A stretch of 46,465 bases of DNA from a virus: IMG/VR virus record IMGVR_UViG_3300030838_000016, positions 1 to 46,465 of that record. One strand, given 5' to 3'. The notes beneath the pieces were generated by a model. The model saw nothing but the letters and a program-made list of their open reading frames with translations. It made no database searches and was not told where the DNA came from. Position numbers and translations under genes: made by a program. Shown here in pieces: positions 25,763-33,813 of the stretch. Each line of letters opens with the position of its first letter. Positions within the stretch are counted from its first letter, which is position 1.

Positions 25763-25934
25763 TTGCAATCTTCTCCAGGTGATGTAATTGCTTGGCGGAC
25801 ACATAGGTGTCATCGCCATATTTTTTATAATGCGCCCTCATACTACCGGTGAATTCGAGTTCCCAATCCGTGCTGGCGTTCATCTCAGCATCAGATAATA
25901 AATCATTAAAATCTTCTATTTCGCTTGCTGTCAT
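25755..25934 (-). CDS. Small acidic hypothetical protein (59 aa)
   Basis: From ATG 25934 the product starts MTASEIEDFNDLLSDAEMNA and ends KQLHHLEKIANV. GAGG stands nine bases before the ATG, and the start overlaps the helicase stop in an ATGA manner. The sequence looks like a small helical protein; no family was recognised. Confidence 0.6.
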   Translation of the reverse strand: MTASEIEDFNDLLSDAEMNASTDWELEFTGSMRAHYKKYGDDTYVSAKQLHHLEKIANV

Positions 25935-28576
25935 TTTATTACCTCTTTAAATAATGCCAATAGAGTCGTTGCGGACATATTCTTTTTGTCCAACGCGTTC
26001 AATACTTTCTTCTCAACATCACTACCTATCAAATGGACAACAGTACATTGGTTGCGTTGTCCGGCGCGGTGCGTACGCCCATTCCCTTGTTGGTAAATTT
26101 CAAAGGACATGGGTACCCCGAACCATATTGTCGTATCCGCTTTTGTCAATGTCACACCGTGTGCCGCAGCTTGCGGCTGGATGATTAACACTTGCGGGTC
26201 GGGTTTGTTTTGGAAATCAGAGAAGATGACATCCCGCTTATTCATGGGGATTTTCCCGTGAATGGCCTCGCAAGTAATGCCTTCATCCTGCAGCATCCGC
26301 ATGATTCGCTCGATGGAGTTCCTAAACTGCACAAACACTATCGTTTTGTTACGCGTCTCACGGATGATATCACACAGCTCTCTGAATCGGTTGGAGATAT
26401 CAAACTCAATAATATCCCCACGTTCATCATAACAGTTGCCCGCTGAAATTTGCAACAACTTTCCAATCAGAACCGCTGCGTTCGCCGCAGTGACCGTTGT
26501 ACCCGCAGCGAGAATCATCATTTCCTTTTTTAGAAGTTTGTAATACTTGTTTTGCTGTGCGGTCAGAGGTACTTCACGCGTCTCATATAATAGCTCAGGT
26601 AAATCCAAACATTCTGATTTAGTAAATCTAATTGCGGGTTGTAAAACTCTGTGTACTGTTCGCTCTGCATCGGGTTTATTTATCCACATAAACATATTGA
26701 TTTTATACTGCACCATCTCCCTAAATGCACCATAAGACCGAGGCACTGATTTAGGGTCTATCATACGCGCCAGACCATAGGCATCACAAGGGCTCTGCGC
26801 AGCCGGTGTAGCGGTCATTAGCCAGCACCAGGTATCCGCTTTAATCAACTTGTTAATGAACTTGTGCTTGCGGGTTTGGACGTTCTTTATGTAGTTGCAG
26901 TTATGGACTAGCACATCCTCAACGATATAATCATGAGGGCCCGCTACTTCCAGATTCCAAACATCGCGAGGACATCCTTGTTGGATACGCGTAACACTGA
27001 CCACCCTAAGTCCTGAAGCAACGCCTCTTTCTTCCTGTCTTGTTCTTGACGCTGTATTGTATTGTGGCTGTACCCGTCTACTTCTAAACAAATCATCTGT
27101 AAAGGGTCTGCGAAATCCAGCTTGTAGTGATAGGGATACCCGCTTCCACGCTTTTGTAATGTCTTTACAATATAGTTGTATTGGAAACTTTCTGGGAGTA
27201 TTGAGCGCATTAGTAACTCTACTCTTGACATACCCGTACCATTGCCGCCCCGCACTCGCATGAACGGTTCCCGACTCCCCAACTCTACTGCCAGCGCACG
27301 CTGTTGTTGCTTGCGCTCTTCTGTATGGGGAATCCCCCTGAGAGGTGAGGGTTGGCCCCGATGCTTCTCCGCTGCTTTCTGTACGCCATCCATCATCCGC
27401 TTTCGCTCTGTTTGCCACACTAACTTTCTGGCGCAGGAACGGGAACAGGTTAATGCTGGACGATACCGCAACACTCTGTGGGGTACAAAATGCTCCCCTC
27501 CGCAGACCGGACACATAACTGTCTCCCCCATAACTTTTGCAGAGCGCGCTTGCGCCGTACATTTTGTGCTGCAATATTTTGCAGGGTTGGTTCTTAAGTA
27601 ACTCTTTACCTTTCGATACTTTTTTCCGAAATGCCCGCACACCAAATCTACATAGTACGACTCTTTCCAACATGCGCGAGAACAATAGTGAGATGCCTTC
27701 TGGTTGGCAAACACCTTCTGCTCGAACGGCGTCCCGCAGGTGTGACAATTCTCTTGATGTAGTACATATTTCACCAAGGAGGTCTTTTGCGGCGACCCAA
27801 CCATTTCGGGTTGAGAAAGGGTGCTCTTCTGTGCAGGTAATTTTGATACCATCTTCAAACTCGACTTCAACTATGTTGGATGATTGTTTATGAAACGTTT
27901 TGGTTACGGGTCTTGGCCCCCAACTTGTCTCTATTATATCACCTTCTACGATTTGTTCAATAGCTCTAAAACCAATAGGCGTAAGAACTCGTGTCCCAGC
28001 TACAAAGCACTCATCAATTATGATTAAATCAAAGTTACCTCGGTCCAAAGCGTCAATCACAATCTCGACGCCATCATAATTGATAAGTATAAACTCAGCT
28101 TTACTATTGATTATTGCCTCGCGTTTCTCCTTTGTGCCATGCGCCACATCAACAGACCGATGCATCACTGTCCTGAATATCTCCTGCTTCCATGCAGAAT
28201 CGAGGATGCTAAGCGGCGCGATAACCAATACACGCCGTATAGCACCTATACTTAGTAGGTAGTCGGCAGCCCAGATAGCGCTTTTCGTTTTGCCAATTCC
28301 TAATTCGCCAAAGTTATACGCCCGCCTATTCAAGGTCAAAAACGAAGCGATACTGCGCTGATGCGAAAAGGGTTTATGGAGTCCAGGCCACCCATACCGA
28401 GTCTCAATGGGCGACGGTACCGTAAAGCCCATGTTTTTTAATATGTGAACATTCCCCAGATTAAAGGGGATGAGCACTTTGCCATTGTCTATCTTGTACT
28501 TGTCTATTACTGTTGTAATGTCGTCAGGGCTATCCGTGGTGACGGATAACACCTTATCATGTATTATCTCAATCAT
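25931..28576 (-). CDS. SNF2/SF2 helicase interrupted by an intein
   Basis: The 881-residue precursor splices to a predicted 511-residue superfamily 2 helicase. N-extein: FSHQRSIASFL (Q-motif-like), Walker A in GELGIGKTKSA (GKT 95-97), VLVIAPLSILDSAW (motif Ia). The DE-box IIIDE is cut after E189 by the intein (190-559) and resumes CNYIKN. C-extein: LMTATPAAQ (motif III), IVFVQFRNSIERI (IV), QAAAHGVTLTKAD (V), YQQGNGRTHRAGQ (VI), which is SNF2-like. It probably remodels DNA at forks or during recombination. Without splicing, the ATPase site cannot form. The start overlaps the 70-residue gene upstream. A homing endonuclease is encoded within the intein in another frame. Confidence 0.88.
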   Translation of the reverse strand: MIEIIHDKVLSVTTDSPDDITTVIDKYKIDNGKVLIPFNLGNVHILKNMGFTVPSPIETRYGWPGLHKPFSHQRSIASFLTLNRRAYNFGELGIGKTKSAIWAADYLLSIGAIRRVLVIAPLSILDSAWKQEIFRTVMHRSVDVAHGTKEKREAIINSKAEFILINYDGVEIVIDALDRGNFDLIIIDECFVAGTRVLTPIGFRAIEQIVEGDIIETSWGPRPVTKTFHKQSSNIVEVEFEDGIKITCTEEHPFSTRNGWVAAKDLLGEICTTSRELSHLRDAVRAEGVCQPEGISLLFSRMLERVVLCRFGVRAFRKKVSKGKELLKNQPCKILQHKMYGASALCKSYGGDSYVSGLRRGAFCTPQSVAVSSSINLFPFLRQKVSVANRAKADDGWRTESSGEASGPTLTSQGDSPYRRAQATTACAGSRVGESGTVHASAGRQWYGYVKSRVTNALNTPRKFPIQLYCKDITKAWKRVSLSLQAGFRRPFTDDLFRSRRVQPQYNTASRTRQEERGVASGLRVVSVTRIQQGCPRDVWNLEVAGPHDYIVEDVLVHNCNYIKNVQTRKHKFINKLIKADTWCWLMTATPAAQSPCDAYGLARMIDPKSVPRSYGAFREMVQYKINMFMWINKPDAERTVHRVLQPAIRFTKSECLDLPELLYETREVPLTAQQNKYYKLLKKEMMILAAGTTVTAANAAVLIGKLLQISAGNCYDERGDIIEFDISNRFRELCDIIRETRNKTIVFVQFRNSIERIMRMLQDEGITCEAIHGKIPMNKRDVIFSDFQNKPDPQVLIIQPQAAAHGVTLTKADTTIWFGVPMSFEIYQQGNGRTHRAGQRNQCTVVHLIGSDVEKKVLNALDKKNMSATTLLALFKEVIK
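26900..28009 (-). mobile_element. Intein in helicase motif II (370 aa)
   Basis: The intein runs from Cys190 to Asn559 of the precursor. Block A is CFVAGTRVLTPIGFRAI; block B TEEHPF has its His at 252; blocks F and G are RDVWNLEVAGPHDYIVED and VLVHN, with Cys as the +1 extein residue. All residues needed for Cys-type splicing are present. Between blocks B and F the frame shows no LAGLIDADG or HNH motif, only Arg/Ser/Gly-rich unstructured text, because that DNA encodes an EDxHD endonuclease in the +1 frame (26944-27852). Insertion in the conserved ATPase motif is the typical choice for inteins. Confidence 0.92.
26944..27852 (-). CDS. EDxHD (Vsr-like) homing endonuclease nested in intein, +1 frame
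   Basis: This frame lies wholly within the helicase intein, offset by one base. It has zinc-finger-like Cys pairs (CHTCGTPFEQ, HYCSRAC, KYCSTKC, CPVCGGEHF, CSRSC), a NUMOD3-like HRGQPSPLRGIPHTEERK, and a C-terminal very-short-patch-repair-like nuclease: HYKLDFADP, CLEVDGYSHN (E-x-D and H), QDRKKEALLQDLGWSVLRVS. These are the marks of intact EDxHD homing endonucleases. The open frame extends to TTG 27870; ATG 27852 is given, and GTG 27774, just after block B, is an alternative. No strong ribosome binding site is seen. Its stop lies at the beginning of block F. Confidence 0.85.
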   Translation of the reverse strand: MVSKLPAQKSTLSQPEMVGSPQKTSLVKYVLHQENCHTCGTPFEQKVFANQKASHYCSRACWKESYYVDLVCGHFGKKYRKVKSYLRTNPAKYCSTKCTAQARSAKVMGETVMCPVCGGEHFVPHRVLRYRPALTCSRSCARKLVWQTERKRMMDGVQKAAEKHRGQPSPLRGIPHTEERKQQQRALAVELGSREPFMRVRGGNGTGMSRVELLMRSILPESFQYNYIVKTLQKRGSGYPYHYKLDFADPLQMICLEVDGYSHNTIQRQEQDRKKEALLQDLGWSVLRVSNKDVLAMFGIWK

Positions 28577-28782: not shown

Positions 28783-29046
28783 TTACTTCCTCTTTGCAGT
28801 GTGATTTGAATTACGTGGGAATGACCGGTTCTGTGACGGCGTCTGTAGCCTGAGATTGCTCTTGGCGTTGCCGGCTTCGGTGCCCTTAATATGGTCAATA
28901 TCCTTACCTTTTCTAGGGATATCGAGTTTATCGTACAATTGTCTAGCCTGCTGCCGTTTCTTGCGTGCGGCCACGGCTTTGGGGTTTTTCTTTTCGACCT
29001 GGGCCTCGTGTGACGGGTCGCGGTCATTCATGTCTTTGTACGGCAT
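28783..29046 (-). CDS. Small HNH-type nuclease domain protein
   Basis: The 87-residue protein is a minimal HNH fold: KGKDIDHIKGTEAGNAKSNL with D-H and N-x3-SNLR, then QTPSQNRSFPRN. The first His-Asp (DH) and the trailing N and N/H positions fit HNH nucleases. Such short genes occur in podovirus replication clusters. Whether it is a homing, packaging or replication nuclease cannot be said. GGAG before the ATG supports the start, and the 5' end overlaps the 81-residue gene upstream by 23 bp. Confidence 0.65.
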   Translation of the reverse strand: MPYKDMNDRDPSHEAQVEKKNPKAVAARKKRQQARQLYDKLDIPRKGKDIDHIKGTEAGNAKSNLRLQTPSQNRSFPRNSNHTAKRK

Positions 29047-31014: not shown

Positions 31015-33813
31015 CTAACAATCGAAAAGAGTTCGGCCATAATGAAACTCAACCTCCAAGGGAATATCCGGCATCCAGTCCGGCGGCTGGCACATGATTT
31101 CTTCTAAAATCTGCTTCGCCTCCTCTACACCCCCCTCCGGCACCAGGACATAGGCGGCGTCGTGAATCAATAATACAATAGGGTAATGCTTATTGATTTT
31201 GGGTAGCGCCTCAGCAAAGATACAGCGTGCAGTTGCCTGAGTAATATTGTTAAAACACTTACCGCTGTACAATCTATCCCAACTGCTTCTAATTTTGTAT
31301 TTATATTCCCGCTTCCGGGTCTGCGCATCTTCAGAATACTGTAGCTCAGGGTATTTTAAATACAGTCCTGACGGTAGCCGGATACCCTTGCGCCCTTCGA
31401 CCTTGATTAAATTATCGGTTAGTATCATCCCCTCACCGCCTGTGGTTAATAACTTAATAGCGTTACCACACGCCGACCATGCTGCTCTCACACCGGGGTG
31501 GTTGTCTCGGTAAAATTCCACTATCCGTTTACTTTCGACGATGCCCACATCCAAACCTATACCCGAGAGAATAGCCGCTTGCAGCTTCGCCGCGCCCACC
31601 CCAAAAACCAATGACAGACAGTTATGGACTAACACGTTAGACACCGTGAAGCGATGCCTAGGGCCGGCGTTTAATATGTCATAGACTCTAACTTTCTTTT
31701 TATCCCCCGCCAATTCTTGCATTTCTTCGCCACTGAGTCCCATGCGGTCTGGATAATTTGTTCCCCCGTTAAACCCTGCTGAACATACTTGCAGGTTACT
31801 CTCAGTGCGTAAGGGGATTCTGCCCAGTCCGCTACCAGAAGCATTTCCTCTCGCCACGAAATCCACATCGTATTTCGACGATTGCTGGTCTGTACCTTGC
31901 GGGACACCATACGCAAGTTCCCTACTGCATAGTGTCCATTGTTGTCGATTCGGTCCACCTCCAACCCGGAATCCCAGAGAGGCAACGTTTTGATATACTC
32001 TACACACTCTTTCGTTGAGCCAAACAAAAACTGAATCCCTCGTCCTCCGTAATTGGCGTAGCCTTTGTCCATAGGATTGCAGCATCTTTGTTGCATAGCT
32101 GTTGCCCGTTTTTGTATAAGCTCCGTAACCTTGTCCCAGACAATCAGATGACCTTGCCTTTGGTGCCGAGTTCGTGTTGCACAAGGCTTGCATCGTCTGG
32201 ACTGCCCTCTGATAATGGCCTCTACATACGCCCACTGCTCTCTGCCACAAACGCAGCGCACATGTATCTTTATGCTCCCCGATTTCACTGTTTGTTGTAT
32301 CTCGGTACTGATTATCTCCCATGAATTTAAGCGGGCGCCTATCATCTCCGGTAGTAGCGAGACGCGCTGATAAATTGGCGGCATCCCCGAACTGGCGGGT
32401 CTCACCAGTTTGCGTAAATATAATATGGTCGGTAGTGGCTGTAAGTCCTTGGTATGTGATGACATCTCTCTCCCCTTGGTAAATGACCCCATCATGTGAG
32501 ACCCATTCTACCCCATCCCATACTCTATCGTCTACCAAAATGTTTTCTATAGGCACTAAACCCCTTGGGGTAAGGACAAGCTGTCCTTCTGCGATACAGG
32601 AGGTCTTGGCAATAAAGCGCTGGTCTTCTGTGACCTCATCATAGGCAACACCCAGTACCTCTGAGGCGAAGACTTTATACAAGTCCAGCCCGCCTGCCAG
32701 GATATCCAGTTTCTCCCACTCCGACGACAGCCAGAGGCCCACGCGCAGTTCGATTTGTTTTAAGTCCGCGCCCAGAATAACATAACCCTCGGGGGCCTTG
32801 AACGCTCGCTTTAACGGCGACTTACGCGGGAAATTCTGGACATTGATTTTATCTGCCCCCGCCCAGCGCCCTGTCGCGGCACTGTAATACTTCAGCGGGA
32901 AAGGACAACACCTGTTCCTTTCTGCAATGCCAATAACCCTTTCACATCGCGTTTCTTCAAGCGTTGATTTAACACCCAACCGAGCAGCAACAATAGTTTG
33001 TACCATAAGGTTATCAGAGTCAAGTAATGCTTTGAAGCCCTCGTCTGTTTTAGCGAACGCATAGGCCGGCTTACCGGTAGTCGGCGACAGCTTCATTGGC
33101 GGCTCCACGCCACAGTCTATCAGCAGTTGCGCCAATTTGACGTTGGACATCAGCTCTTTTCGAGAGACAATGACCTTGTCCATGAGCGCTTGTTTTTTAG
33201 CTTGCACGTCGGCAAGGTGTGCGGTCAGCACGGCTTTATCCAATTCCAACAACGGTCGTGTGGCCATCTTCAGGGTGATATCAATAATGTCTAATTCAGA
33301 TTTAGTAAAGTGCGGCAGTAGTTTGTAAAACAATTTGTACGTTAGCTCGGTGTCGTTCTTGCAGTACTCACCATAGCGCGCTAGTTCTTCAGTAGTAAAG
33401 TCTTGTTTACGTTTACCCAAGGCATTGATGACCTCAGTGCCCTTGACACCCAGCTGGTAATGCTCAGCCAGCTTGGCCAGACTGCCCCCGACCTCGATGC
33501 CATGGATTGCTCTTGACATACTTAGCGTGTCGATGAGCTTCTTAGGGTGGATACCGAAGCGCAGGCCAAGGATGCTTGAGTCGAATAGACTATTGTGGTT
33601 TACTAATGCAATATCATCCCAATCAAATTGGTTTAGGTATGCTTTCGTCTCATCAAATGTTCCGGAGAACCATTGTGCGGGCTCGTTGTTAATCTTGGTG
33701 GATACACCGATAACCTCGAAGCGGTCATCTGTTATATATTGCTCGGTCGTCAGCTTACTTAGGGAATAATCTTTTGCATAAAAAGTTTCTGCGTCCAGAG
33801 TTAGTAGTTGCAT
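31015..33813 (-). CDS. polA: Family A DNA polymerase interrupted by an intein
   Basis: The 932-residue precursor splices to a predicted 606-residue replicative polymerase. The 3'-5' exonuclease part has TLDAETF (D-x-E), VNHNSLFDSSIL and YCKNDTELTY. Polymerase motif A is LGADLKQIELR near 350. Motif B starts RFIAKTS and is cut after S405 by the intein (406-731), resuming CLSLVFGVG. Motif C is LLIHDAAYVLV near 880. In the spliced motif B the residue aligned with E. coli Phe762 is Leu. No 5'-3' exonuclease domain is present, as in other phage PolA proteins. The start overlaps the VRR-NUC gene by 13 bp. Replication depends on splicing because the O-helix is split. Confidence 0.92.
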   Translation of the reverse strand: MQLLTLDAETFYAKDYSLSKLTTEQYITDDRFEVIGVSTKINNEPAQWFSGTFDETKAYLNQFDWDDIALVNHNSLFDSSILGLRFGIHPKKLIDTLSMSRAIHGIEVGGSLAKLAEHYQLGVKGTEVINALGKRKQDFTTEELARYGEYCKNDTELTYKLFYKLLPHFTKSELDIIDITLKMATRPLLELDKAVLTAHLADVQAKKQALMDKVIVSRKELMSNVKLAQLLIDCGVEPPMKLSPTTGKPAYAFAKTDEGFKALLDSDNLMVQTIVAARLGVKSTLEETRCERVIGIAERNRCCPFPLKYYSAATGRWAGADKINVQNFPRKSPLKRAFKAPEGYVILGADLKQIELRVGLWLSSEWEKLDILAGGLDLYKVFASEVLGVAYDEVTEDQRFIAKTSCIAEGQLVLTPRGLVPIENILVDDRVWDGVEWVSHDGVIYQGERDVITYQGLTATTDHIIFTQTGETRQFGDAANLSARLATTGDDRRPLKFMGDNQYRDTTNSEIGEHKDTCALRLWQRAVGVCRGHYQRAVQTMQALCNTNSAPKARSSDCLGQGYGAYTKTGNSYATKMLQSYGQRLRQLRRTRDSVFVWLNERVCRVYQNVASLGFRVGGGPNRQQWTLCSRELAYGVPQGTDQQSSKYDVDFVARGNASGSGLGRIPLRTESNLQVCSAGFNGGTNYPDRMGLSGEEMQELAGDKKKVRVYDILNAGPRHRFTVSNVLVHNCLSLVFGVGAAKLQAAILSGIGLDVGIVESKRIVEFYRDNHPGVRAAWSACGNAIKLLTTGGEGMILTDNLIKVEGRKGIRLPSGLYLKYPELQYSEDAQTRKREYKYKIRSSWDRLYSGKCFNNITQATARCIFAEALPKINKHYPIVLLIHDAAYVLVPEGGVEEAKQILEEIMCQPPDWMPDIPLEVEFHYGRTLFDC
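31621..32598 (-). mobile_element. Intein in DNA polymerase motif B (326 aa)
   Basis: The element spans Cys406 to Asn731. Block A is CIAEGQLVLTPRGLVPIEN, block B TATTDHIIF, block F VRVYDILNAGPRHRFTVSN and block G VLVHN, with Cys at +1. Between B and F the frame has no endonuclease motif, and the text is Arg/Gln/Ser/Gly-rich, since this DNA encodes an HNH homing endonuclease in the +1 frame (31671-32465). The intein frame stays open across all 326 codons. Confidence 0.92.
31671..32465 (-). CDS. HNH homing endonuclease nested in intein, +1 frame
   Basis: This frame is inside the polymerase intein, shifted by one base. From about 32345 it reads like an intact phage homing endonuclease: MIGARLNSWEIISTEIQ, VRCVCGREQWAYVEAI, SRRCKPCATRT (zinc-binding N-domain), MQQRCCNPMDKGYANYGGRG, then the HNH core LEVDRIDNNGHYAVGNLRMV followed by SRKVQTSNRRNT. 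ATG 32465 is given because GGGGAG stands four bases before it; ATG 32345 matches the family start and lies after block B; the frame is open to 32495. It stops about 50 bases before the intein end, next to block F. Confidence 0.87.
   Translation of the reverse strand: MSSHTKDLQPLPTILYLRKLVRPASSGMPPIYQRVSLLPEMIGARLNSWEIISTEIQQTVKSGSIKIHVRCVCGREQWAYVEAIIRGQSRRCKPCATRTRHQRQGHLIVWDKVTELIQKRATAMQQRCCNPMDKGYANYGGRGIQFLFGSTKECVEYIKTLPLWDSGLEVDRIDNNGHYAVGNLRMVSRKVQTSNRRNTMWISWREEMLLVADWAESPYALRVTCKYVQQGLTGEQIIQTAWDSVAKKCKNWRGIKRKLESMTY

Follow-up and report, generated by a model that had tools for sequence, protein, structure and literature searches.

An HNH-family nuclease gene lying in the +1 frame of a viral DNA polymerase intein, and its out-of-frame relatives in other inteins

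The window, a 46,465-nucleotide stretch of viral DNA analysed here as a whole, carries on its minus strand a gene for a family A DNA polymerase (31015..33813). The 932-aa precursor, made up of exteins and intein, matches the Pfam models DNA_pol_A (6.1e-21) and exonuclease (2.6e-8) and the DNA polymerase family PHROG 17 (1.8e-79). The in-frame intein of 326 aa (31621..32598, minus strand) is situated in polymerase motif B (KTS^intein^CLSLVFGVG); it begins with C1 at 32598 and ends with N326 at 31621, which is followed by Cys+1, and its 326 codons are open throughout. The residues of a class 1 (Hint) intein are present: C1, T55-H58 of the block B TxxH motif, D307, G312 and P313 of block F, H325-N326 of block G, and Cys+1. 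These coordinates, together with the invariant residues of related inteins, agree with an earlier sequence-only reading, which had described a 326-codon frame open across motif B with blocks A, B, F and G. Nested in the +1 frame of the same DNA is a second gene, predicted to encode a zinc ribbon and an HNH-family endonuclease.

In an alignment of 31 inteins, C1, L9, T10, G13, I17, W27, D28, G29, W32, T55, H58, D307, G312, P313 and N326 are invariant and correspond to the splicing blocks, and the ~200 linker residues between these blocks display no conservation. Some of the related inteins end in SN, AN or LN rather than HN. The AlphaFold2 model of the window intein has the same division: pLDDT is about 95-97 for the N-terminal splicing half (blocks A and B, residues 1-86; 32341..32598, minus strand), about 95 for the C-terminal half (blocks F and G, residues 300-326; 31621..31701, minus strand) and about 40 for the linker (31702..32340, minus strand). 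The linker is predicted to be disordered, has no conserved columns and is, in effect, an in-frame shadow of the HNH gene read out of frame. Comparison of the intein model with known structures by Foldseek identified gp41-1 (6qaz; E=3.5e-4, probability 1.0) and other inteins as well, which indicates a Hint fold. No catalytic intron RNA was matched in Rfam up to E=1, and the insert thus does not belong with group I or group II introns by this search. We also note that PHROG 26005, a family of "unknown function", matches the N-terminal splicing part of the window intein, which suggests that this orphan family consists of pieces of intein-bearing polymerases.

The residues and the model depict an insert that looks competent for splicing and would be removed from the precursor as a protein. 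It could instead be an RNA intron or an insertion that is simply retained, and for the latter there is a precedent in the ShiLan domain, where an out-of-frame HNH sits in a phage methylase gene within an insert that has no detectable splicing element (PMC11855218). We consider such alternatives highly unlikely for the polymerase insert and reject them on the Rfam result, the invariance of the splicing residues and the predicted Hint fold matching gp41-1. Furthermore, mini-inteins of the family keep the Hint domain after loss of the HNH, and retention within motif B, a part of the polymerase active site, would be expected to be lethal.

The +1 frame of the intein is open for 278 codons and, from the ATG at 32465 to the TAA at 31671, specifies a protein of 264 aa (31671..32465, minus strand). 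Its sequence contains a CxC...CxxC zinc-binding module (32181..32255, minus strand), followed by an HNH-type core, LEVDRIDNNGHYAVGNLRMV...SNRRNT, with LEVDRIDNNGHYAVGNLRMVSRKVQTSNRR at 31872..31961 (minus strand). The ORF matches the HNH families PHROG 374 (5.6e-21) and PHROG 3377 (2.5e-19); searches of Pfam and NCBIfam matched no HNH model. A profile of the nested family matches the homing endonuclease I-HmuI (1u3e) with E=0.0057. The AlphaFold2 model of the nested protein has a mean pLDDT of 85.5, and its comparison with the PDB by Foldseek gave no significant match.

A 24-member alignment of the nested HNH family reveals that C71, C73 and C95 of the zinc module and R172, Y179, N183 and N195 of the HNH core are invariant, and that D171, R185 and R197 are at least 90% conserved. 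Alignment of the core with the active site of I-HmuI indicates that the catalytic first His of the HNH motif is absent: the DH of I-HmuI is DR here, with the Arg (R172) invariant in all 24 members, and free-standing relatives of the nuclease were recovered with the same [LIV]DR motif. The claim of an intact zinc-binding HNH enzyme in the +1 frame holds with respect to the 264-aa ORF, the two PHROG families and the zinc module; it does not hold for the catalytic His, which is replaced by Arg. Since Arg occupies the position of the I-HmuI catalytic His, catalysis by the nested nuclease is an assumption, and this substitution, common to the nuclease family, appears to be the weakest functional point of the case. 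Its most likely role would be to cut intein-less polymerase alleles at motif B.

The window contains a second intein (26900..28009, minus strand; Pfam Intein_splicing 2.3e-7, TIGR01445 above cut-off) in a SNF2-type helicase gene (25931-28576). It also has a nested +1 ORF (26944..27870, minus strand), in which Cys-rich zinc modules are combined with a DUF559/Vsr-like nuclease (PF04480, 2.7e-7, above cut-off); as had been noted from the sequence, the nuclease family thus differs from that of the polymerase intein. All of the helicase-intein relatives L103-L108 (34-47% identity) have a nuclease nested in +1, and a Vsr/DUF559-like nuclease is likewise found in +1 inside annotated helicase CDSs of CP-T1, MR14 and 159E43-1b. 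Two nuclease superfamilies therefore share the nested arrangement. The suggestion that it arose twice was too modest, considering the +1 and +2 HNH groups described below, the separate nuclease superfamily, and the several polymerase and helicase sites. Pseudomonas phage MR14 (L343, L096) resembles the window in having both a polymerase intein with an HNH (in +2) and a helicase gene with a Vsr-like nuclease (in +1). Just upstream of the helicase gene of the window lies an apparently free-standing 87-aa ORF of HNH type (DHI..N..N; 28783..29046, minus strand), with weak matches to PHROG 99 and PHROG 4578.

A scan with the window HNH ORF alone returned identical copies only, and the relatives were therefore gathered via the in-frame intein, which gave 94 relatives, of which 80 were retrieved for study. 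Two open frames over the same DNA could in principle result from an indel introduced by sequencing or assembly, the more so as the source is metagenomic. This possibility is practically negligible: three separate, independent assemblies of the locus are identical, and the same out-of-frame layout is present in cultured phages, prophages and bacterial genomes, which together refute a sequencing error.

Among 74 distinct inteins, all those longer than about 250 residues have an ORF of 186-292 codons in another sense frame, with HNH motifs recognisable in nearly all of these ORFs; the inteins that lack such an ORF are mini-inteins of 129-187 aa. A broader HMM survey, which did not require an open host frame, took in viral contigs, cultured phages and bacterial genomes and yielded 168 distinct related inteins. 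With the host frame open, 122 have the HNH in +1, 16 have it in +2, and 18 are mini-inteins without HNH; with the host frame broken, eight have the HNH in +1 and four have none. The host frame is thus open in 138 of the 146 HNH-bearing inteins. The same nuclease in frame with the intein in close relatives, which according to the sequence-only reading would point to an indel error, was sought and found in 0 of these 146, so that the canonical class with an in-frame endonuclease was not encountered, and an independent scan seeded with the nuclease also gave none. Most relatives in the latter scan are free-standing genes, and all nested ones lie out of frame inside inteins.

Examples in cultured phages and prophages include Streptococcus Javan113/255, Gardnerella vB_Gva_AB1, Hamiltonella APSE-1, Caulobacter GB2A and Shewanella SFCi1 for +1, and EBPR siphovirus 2, Vibrio 97.13 and Pseudomonas MR14 for +2. 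In their annotated records, a single polymerase CDS covers the nested nuclease. The APSE-1 record also holds a deposited overlapping ORF, P46 (L092 2231-2653), which is read in +1 relative to the P45 intein and corresponds to the C-terminal half of the nested HNH; the name P46 is given to a gene at a different position in a table of PMC8579659. Inteins are inserted at several positions of PolA motif B, at a second site in PolA (C|ENxxQAxARD) and at a helicase site. In three loci from bacterial genomes (L196, L214 and L215), both halves of the intein are recognisable, the host frame is broken and no HNH was found in between; these may hold other nucleases or be degraded copies. Judging from the sequences compared, the out-of-frame HNH intein is a widespread arrangement selected in both frames, neither a one-off nor a sequencing error.

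Selection on both frames is observed in several ways. Synonymous shuffling of 67 nested HNH ORFs leads to an expectation of 504 stops in frame 0, where none is observed; the loci for this and for the codon-phase test had to have an open frame, and the unfiltered HMM survey gives the same picture (138/146 open). For the window ORF, the shuffles contained a mean of 8.4 frame-0 stops and 0 of 2000 were open, as opposed to the 0 stops observed. The identity of the HNH frame exceeds that of frame 0 of the same DNA in 26 of 26 independent pairs (mean 0.71 vs 0.51) and in all 218 pairs. Differences at HNH codon positions 1, 2 and 3 number 991/908/1984 for the +1 group and 238/184/348 for the +2 group (p below 1e-11 for each), the relatives in these tests not being phylogenetically independent and the codon-phase alignments, built on HNH proteins, slightly favouring the HNH frame. 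The window and its closest distinct relative, L008, differ at 97/96/147 sites of HNH codon positions 1, 2 and 3 (p=5.5e-4), with 54% identity in the HNH frame and 34% in frame 0, and the close pair L044/L057 has the same third-position bias (12/5/38). Because the differences are concentrated on HNH third positions and the HNH identity is the higher one, the conserved product of the two is the nuclease, and the main demand on the in-frame linker is that it contain no stops.

These patterns bear on whether the HNH is a formerly in-frame domain that an indel has moved out of frame, leaving a dead gene. In-frame HNH inteins do exist, as in the dCTP deaminase of cyanophage CL131 (PMC6293099), and the HNH frame is broken in some members of the present family (L017, L087). 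Nevertheless, decay of this kind is hardly credible, since the third-position bias of the HNH frame marks purifying selection with the in-frame linker being less conserved, none of the 146 members is in frame, and the residues of the zinc module and the HNH core are invariant. A dead relic is contradicted in that the neutral substitution pattern expected for the HNH frame was not seen.

The GGGGAG proposed as a ribosome-binding site ahead of the internal ATG 32465 is indeed found at 32475-32470, 4 nt upstream, and is part of a putative Shine-Dalgarno (SD) sequence, AAGGGGAG (32470..32477, minus strand), lying inside the intein codons for Q-G-E-R. Taken alone, the window SD is no stronger than chance in synonymous shuffles (p=0.33); this start, of the nt-133 type, has the same position and SD in L008, L014 and L018. 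Across the family, synonymous shuffles of the intein codons give a weaker best SD and start than is found in the HNH frame (mean -5.6 vs -7.8 kcal/mol; Wilcoxon 1.7e-9, Fisher 7e-7), and the third frame, which is unused, is also weaker (p=9e-4). The nested starts cluster at intein nt 145, 202, 220 and 133. At nt 145, the intein K-E-V-I-T-Y codons read AAGGAGGTNATNACNTAT-G, which supplies a near-perfect SD and, shifted by one frame, an ATG, and in several loci a near-perfect AAGGAGGT precedes the ATG formed from these codons. Of 138 nested ORFs, 129 have their stop within the intein.

A different route to the same protein would be programmed +1 ribosomal frameshifting, by which the nuclease would be fused to the N-terminal part of the intein without internal initiation. 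The dominance of the +1 frame (122+8 vs 16) and the fact that the open +1 frame often begins ahead of the start selected (by 14 codons in the window) are in keeping with such a fusion. However, the +1 frame is shut by a stop two codons or fewer before the start in 21 of 57 +1 loci, which leaves almost no room for a shift and argues against frameshifting. The SDs surpass the synonymous expectation at a few fixed positions, the +2 members would require a different shift, and the free-standing relatives have no fusion partner. We regard frameshifting as unlikely, and independent internal translation of the nuclease as the best-supported reading of these signals.

The distribution of the element was approached through a tblastn search across the joined polymerase flanks. 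Of the 79 closest polymerases, whose N-exteins are 51-59% identical, 76 read through the empty site and three are only partly aligned there; the examples shown have V, Q or S at the position of the carrier's Cys. Decay of the nuclease with the host frame kept open is seen in Javan422, where a deletion has left a zinc-domain remnant in an open intein of 168 aa, in PhiSdyV1524, where the HNH is shortened, and in the mini-inteins, where the HNH is lost and the Hint domain and open frame 0 are kept. A tree of 198 HNH sequences implies at least five changes between free-standing and nested states and contains a 15-member +2 clade with full support, several deeper branches being weakly supported. 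No recent transfer event was caught in this set, the closest distinct HNH being 54% identical.

In four loci (L061, L128, L169 and L052), a stop terminates IntN, an HNH ORF comes next, and IntC has an ORF to itself. The order of IntN, nuclease ORF and IntC is that of the fractured genes with split inteins and a free-standing endonuclease that Dassa et al. are said to have described in 2009; the nuclease family in that case was reportedly Vsr-like, as is that of the helicase intein. The window differs from fractured genes in that its host frame is unbroken, splicing would occur in cis, and the nuclease overlaps the intein halves rather than separating them.

The window element can be compared with several other known systems. 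Canonical inteins, such as PI-SceI and that of the CL131 dCTP deaminase (PMC6293099), likewise combine a Hint domain and a nuclease in one insert at a conserved host motif. In these inteins, the excised protein includes the nuclease as a domain, whereas in the window the nuclease is a separate gene in another frame, with only a disordered linker in the host frame. Group I introns with HNH ORFs of the I-HmuI type share a nuclease ORF independent of the splicing element, in line with the I-HmuI profile match; in contrast, the window has a protein splicing element, its nuclease ORF overlaps translated coding sequence, and no intron was found. The ShiLan domain (PMC11855218) is similar in having HNH and zinc modules out of frame in a host gene, an open insert and a patchy distribution, and differs in lacking a splicing domain and a detectable SD, a leaderless GTG start having been proposed for it. 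Here, the HNH resides within a complete intein and has SD sites, and two frames, several genes and many hosts are involved. ShiLan is the sole report of an out-of-frame HNH in an inserted element that was found in the literature covered.

We propose, with a probability of roughly 0.8, that the locus is a dual-coding mobile intein, in which an in-frame splicing element is combined with a separately translated +1 nuclease captured out of frame. Frame 0 would be translated through as part of the polymerase precursor, and the two Hint halves would assemble and remove the intein from motif B, the disordered middle acting as no more than a linker. The nuclease would be translated separately from the internal SD and the start codon embedded in splicing-domain codons, its gene ending near the C-terminal splicing half, and would cut intein-less alleles at motif B and so drive homing of the whole element. 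It would derive from a phage HNH gene that at first stood alone, complete with a stop codon, and was captured out of frame.

For the family as a whole, we think it somewhat probable that these elements represent a widespread, unrecognised intein class, in which the nuclease is always a separate overprinted gene, the linker is its shadow, the splicing motifs also serve as the start codon and ribosome-binding site of the nuclease, and an element whose host frame is lost becomes a fractured split intein. If this is true, inteins with overprinted nucleases would provide the link hitherto missing among free-standing nucleases, inteins and split inteins, and the family would supply natural intermediates toward the last of these. 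They would also show how an intein can acquire a nuclease: the gene, free-standing at first and bringing its stop codon along, would be tolerable only out of frame, and selection would then clear the host frame of stops. Production of the nuclease would be uncoupled from splicing, and the puzzling disordered Arg/Gln-rich linkers of many phage polymerase "proteins" would be explained, and annotation pipelines would be shown to hide such nucleases beneath a single polymerase or helicase CDS.
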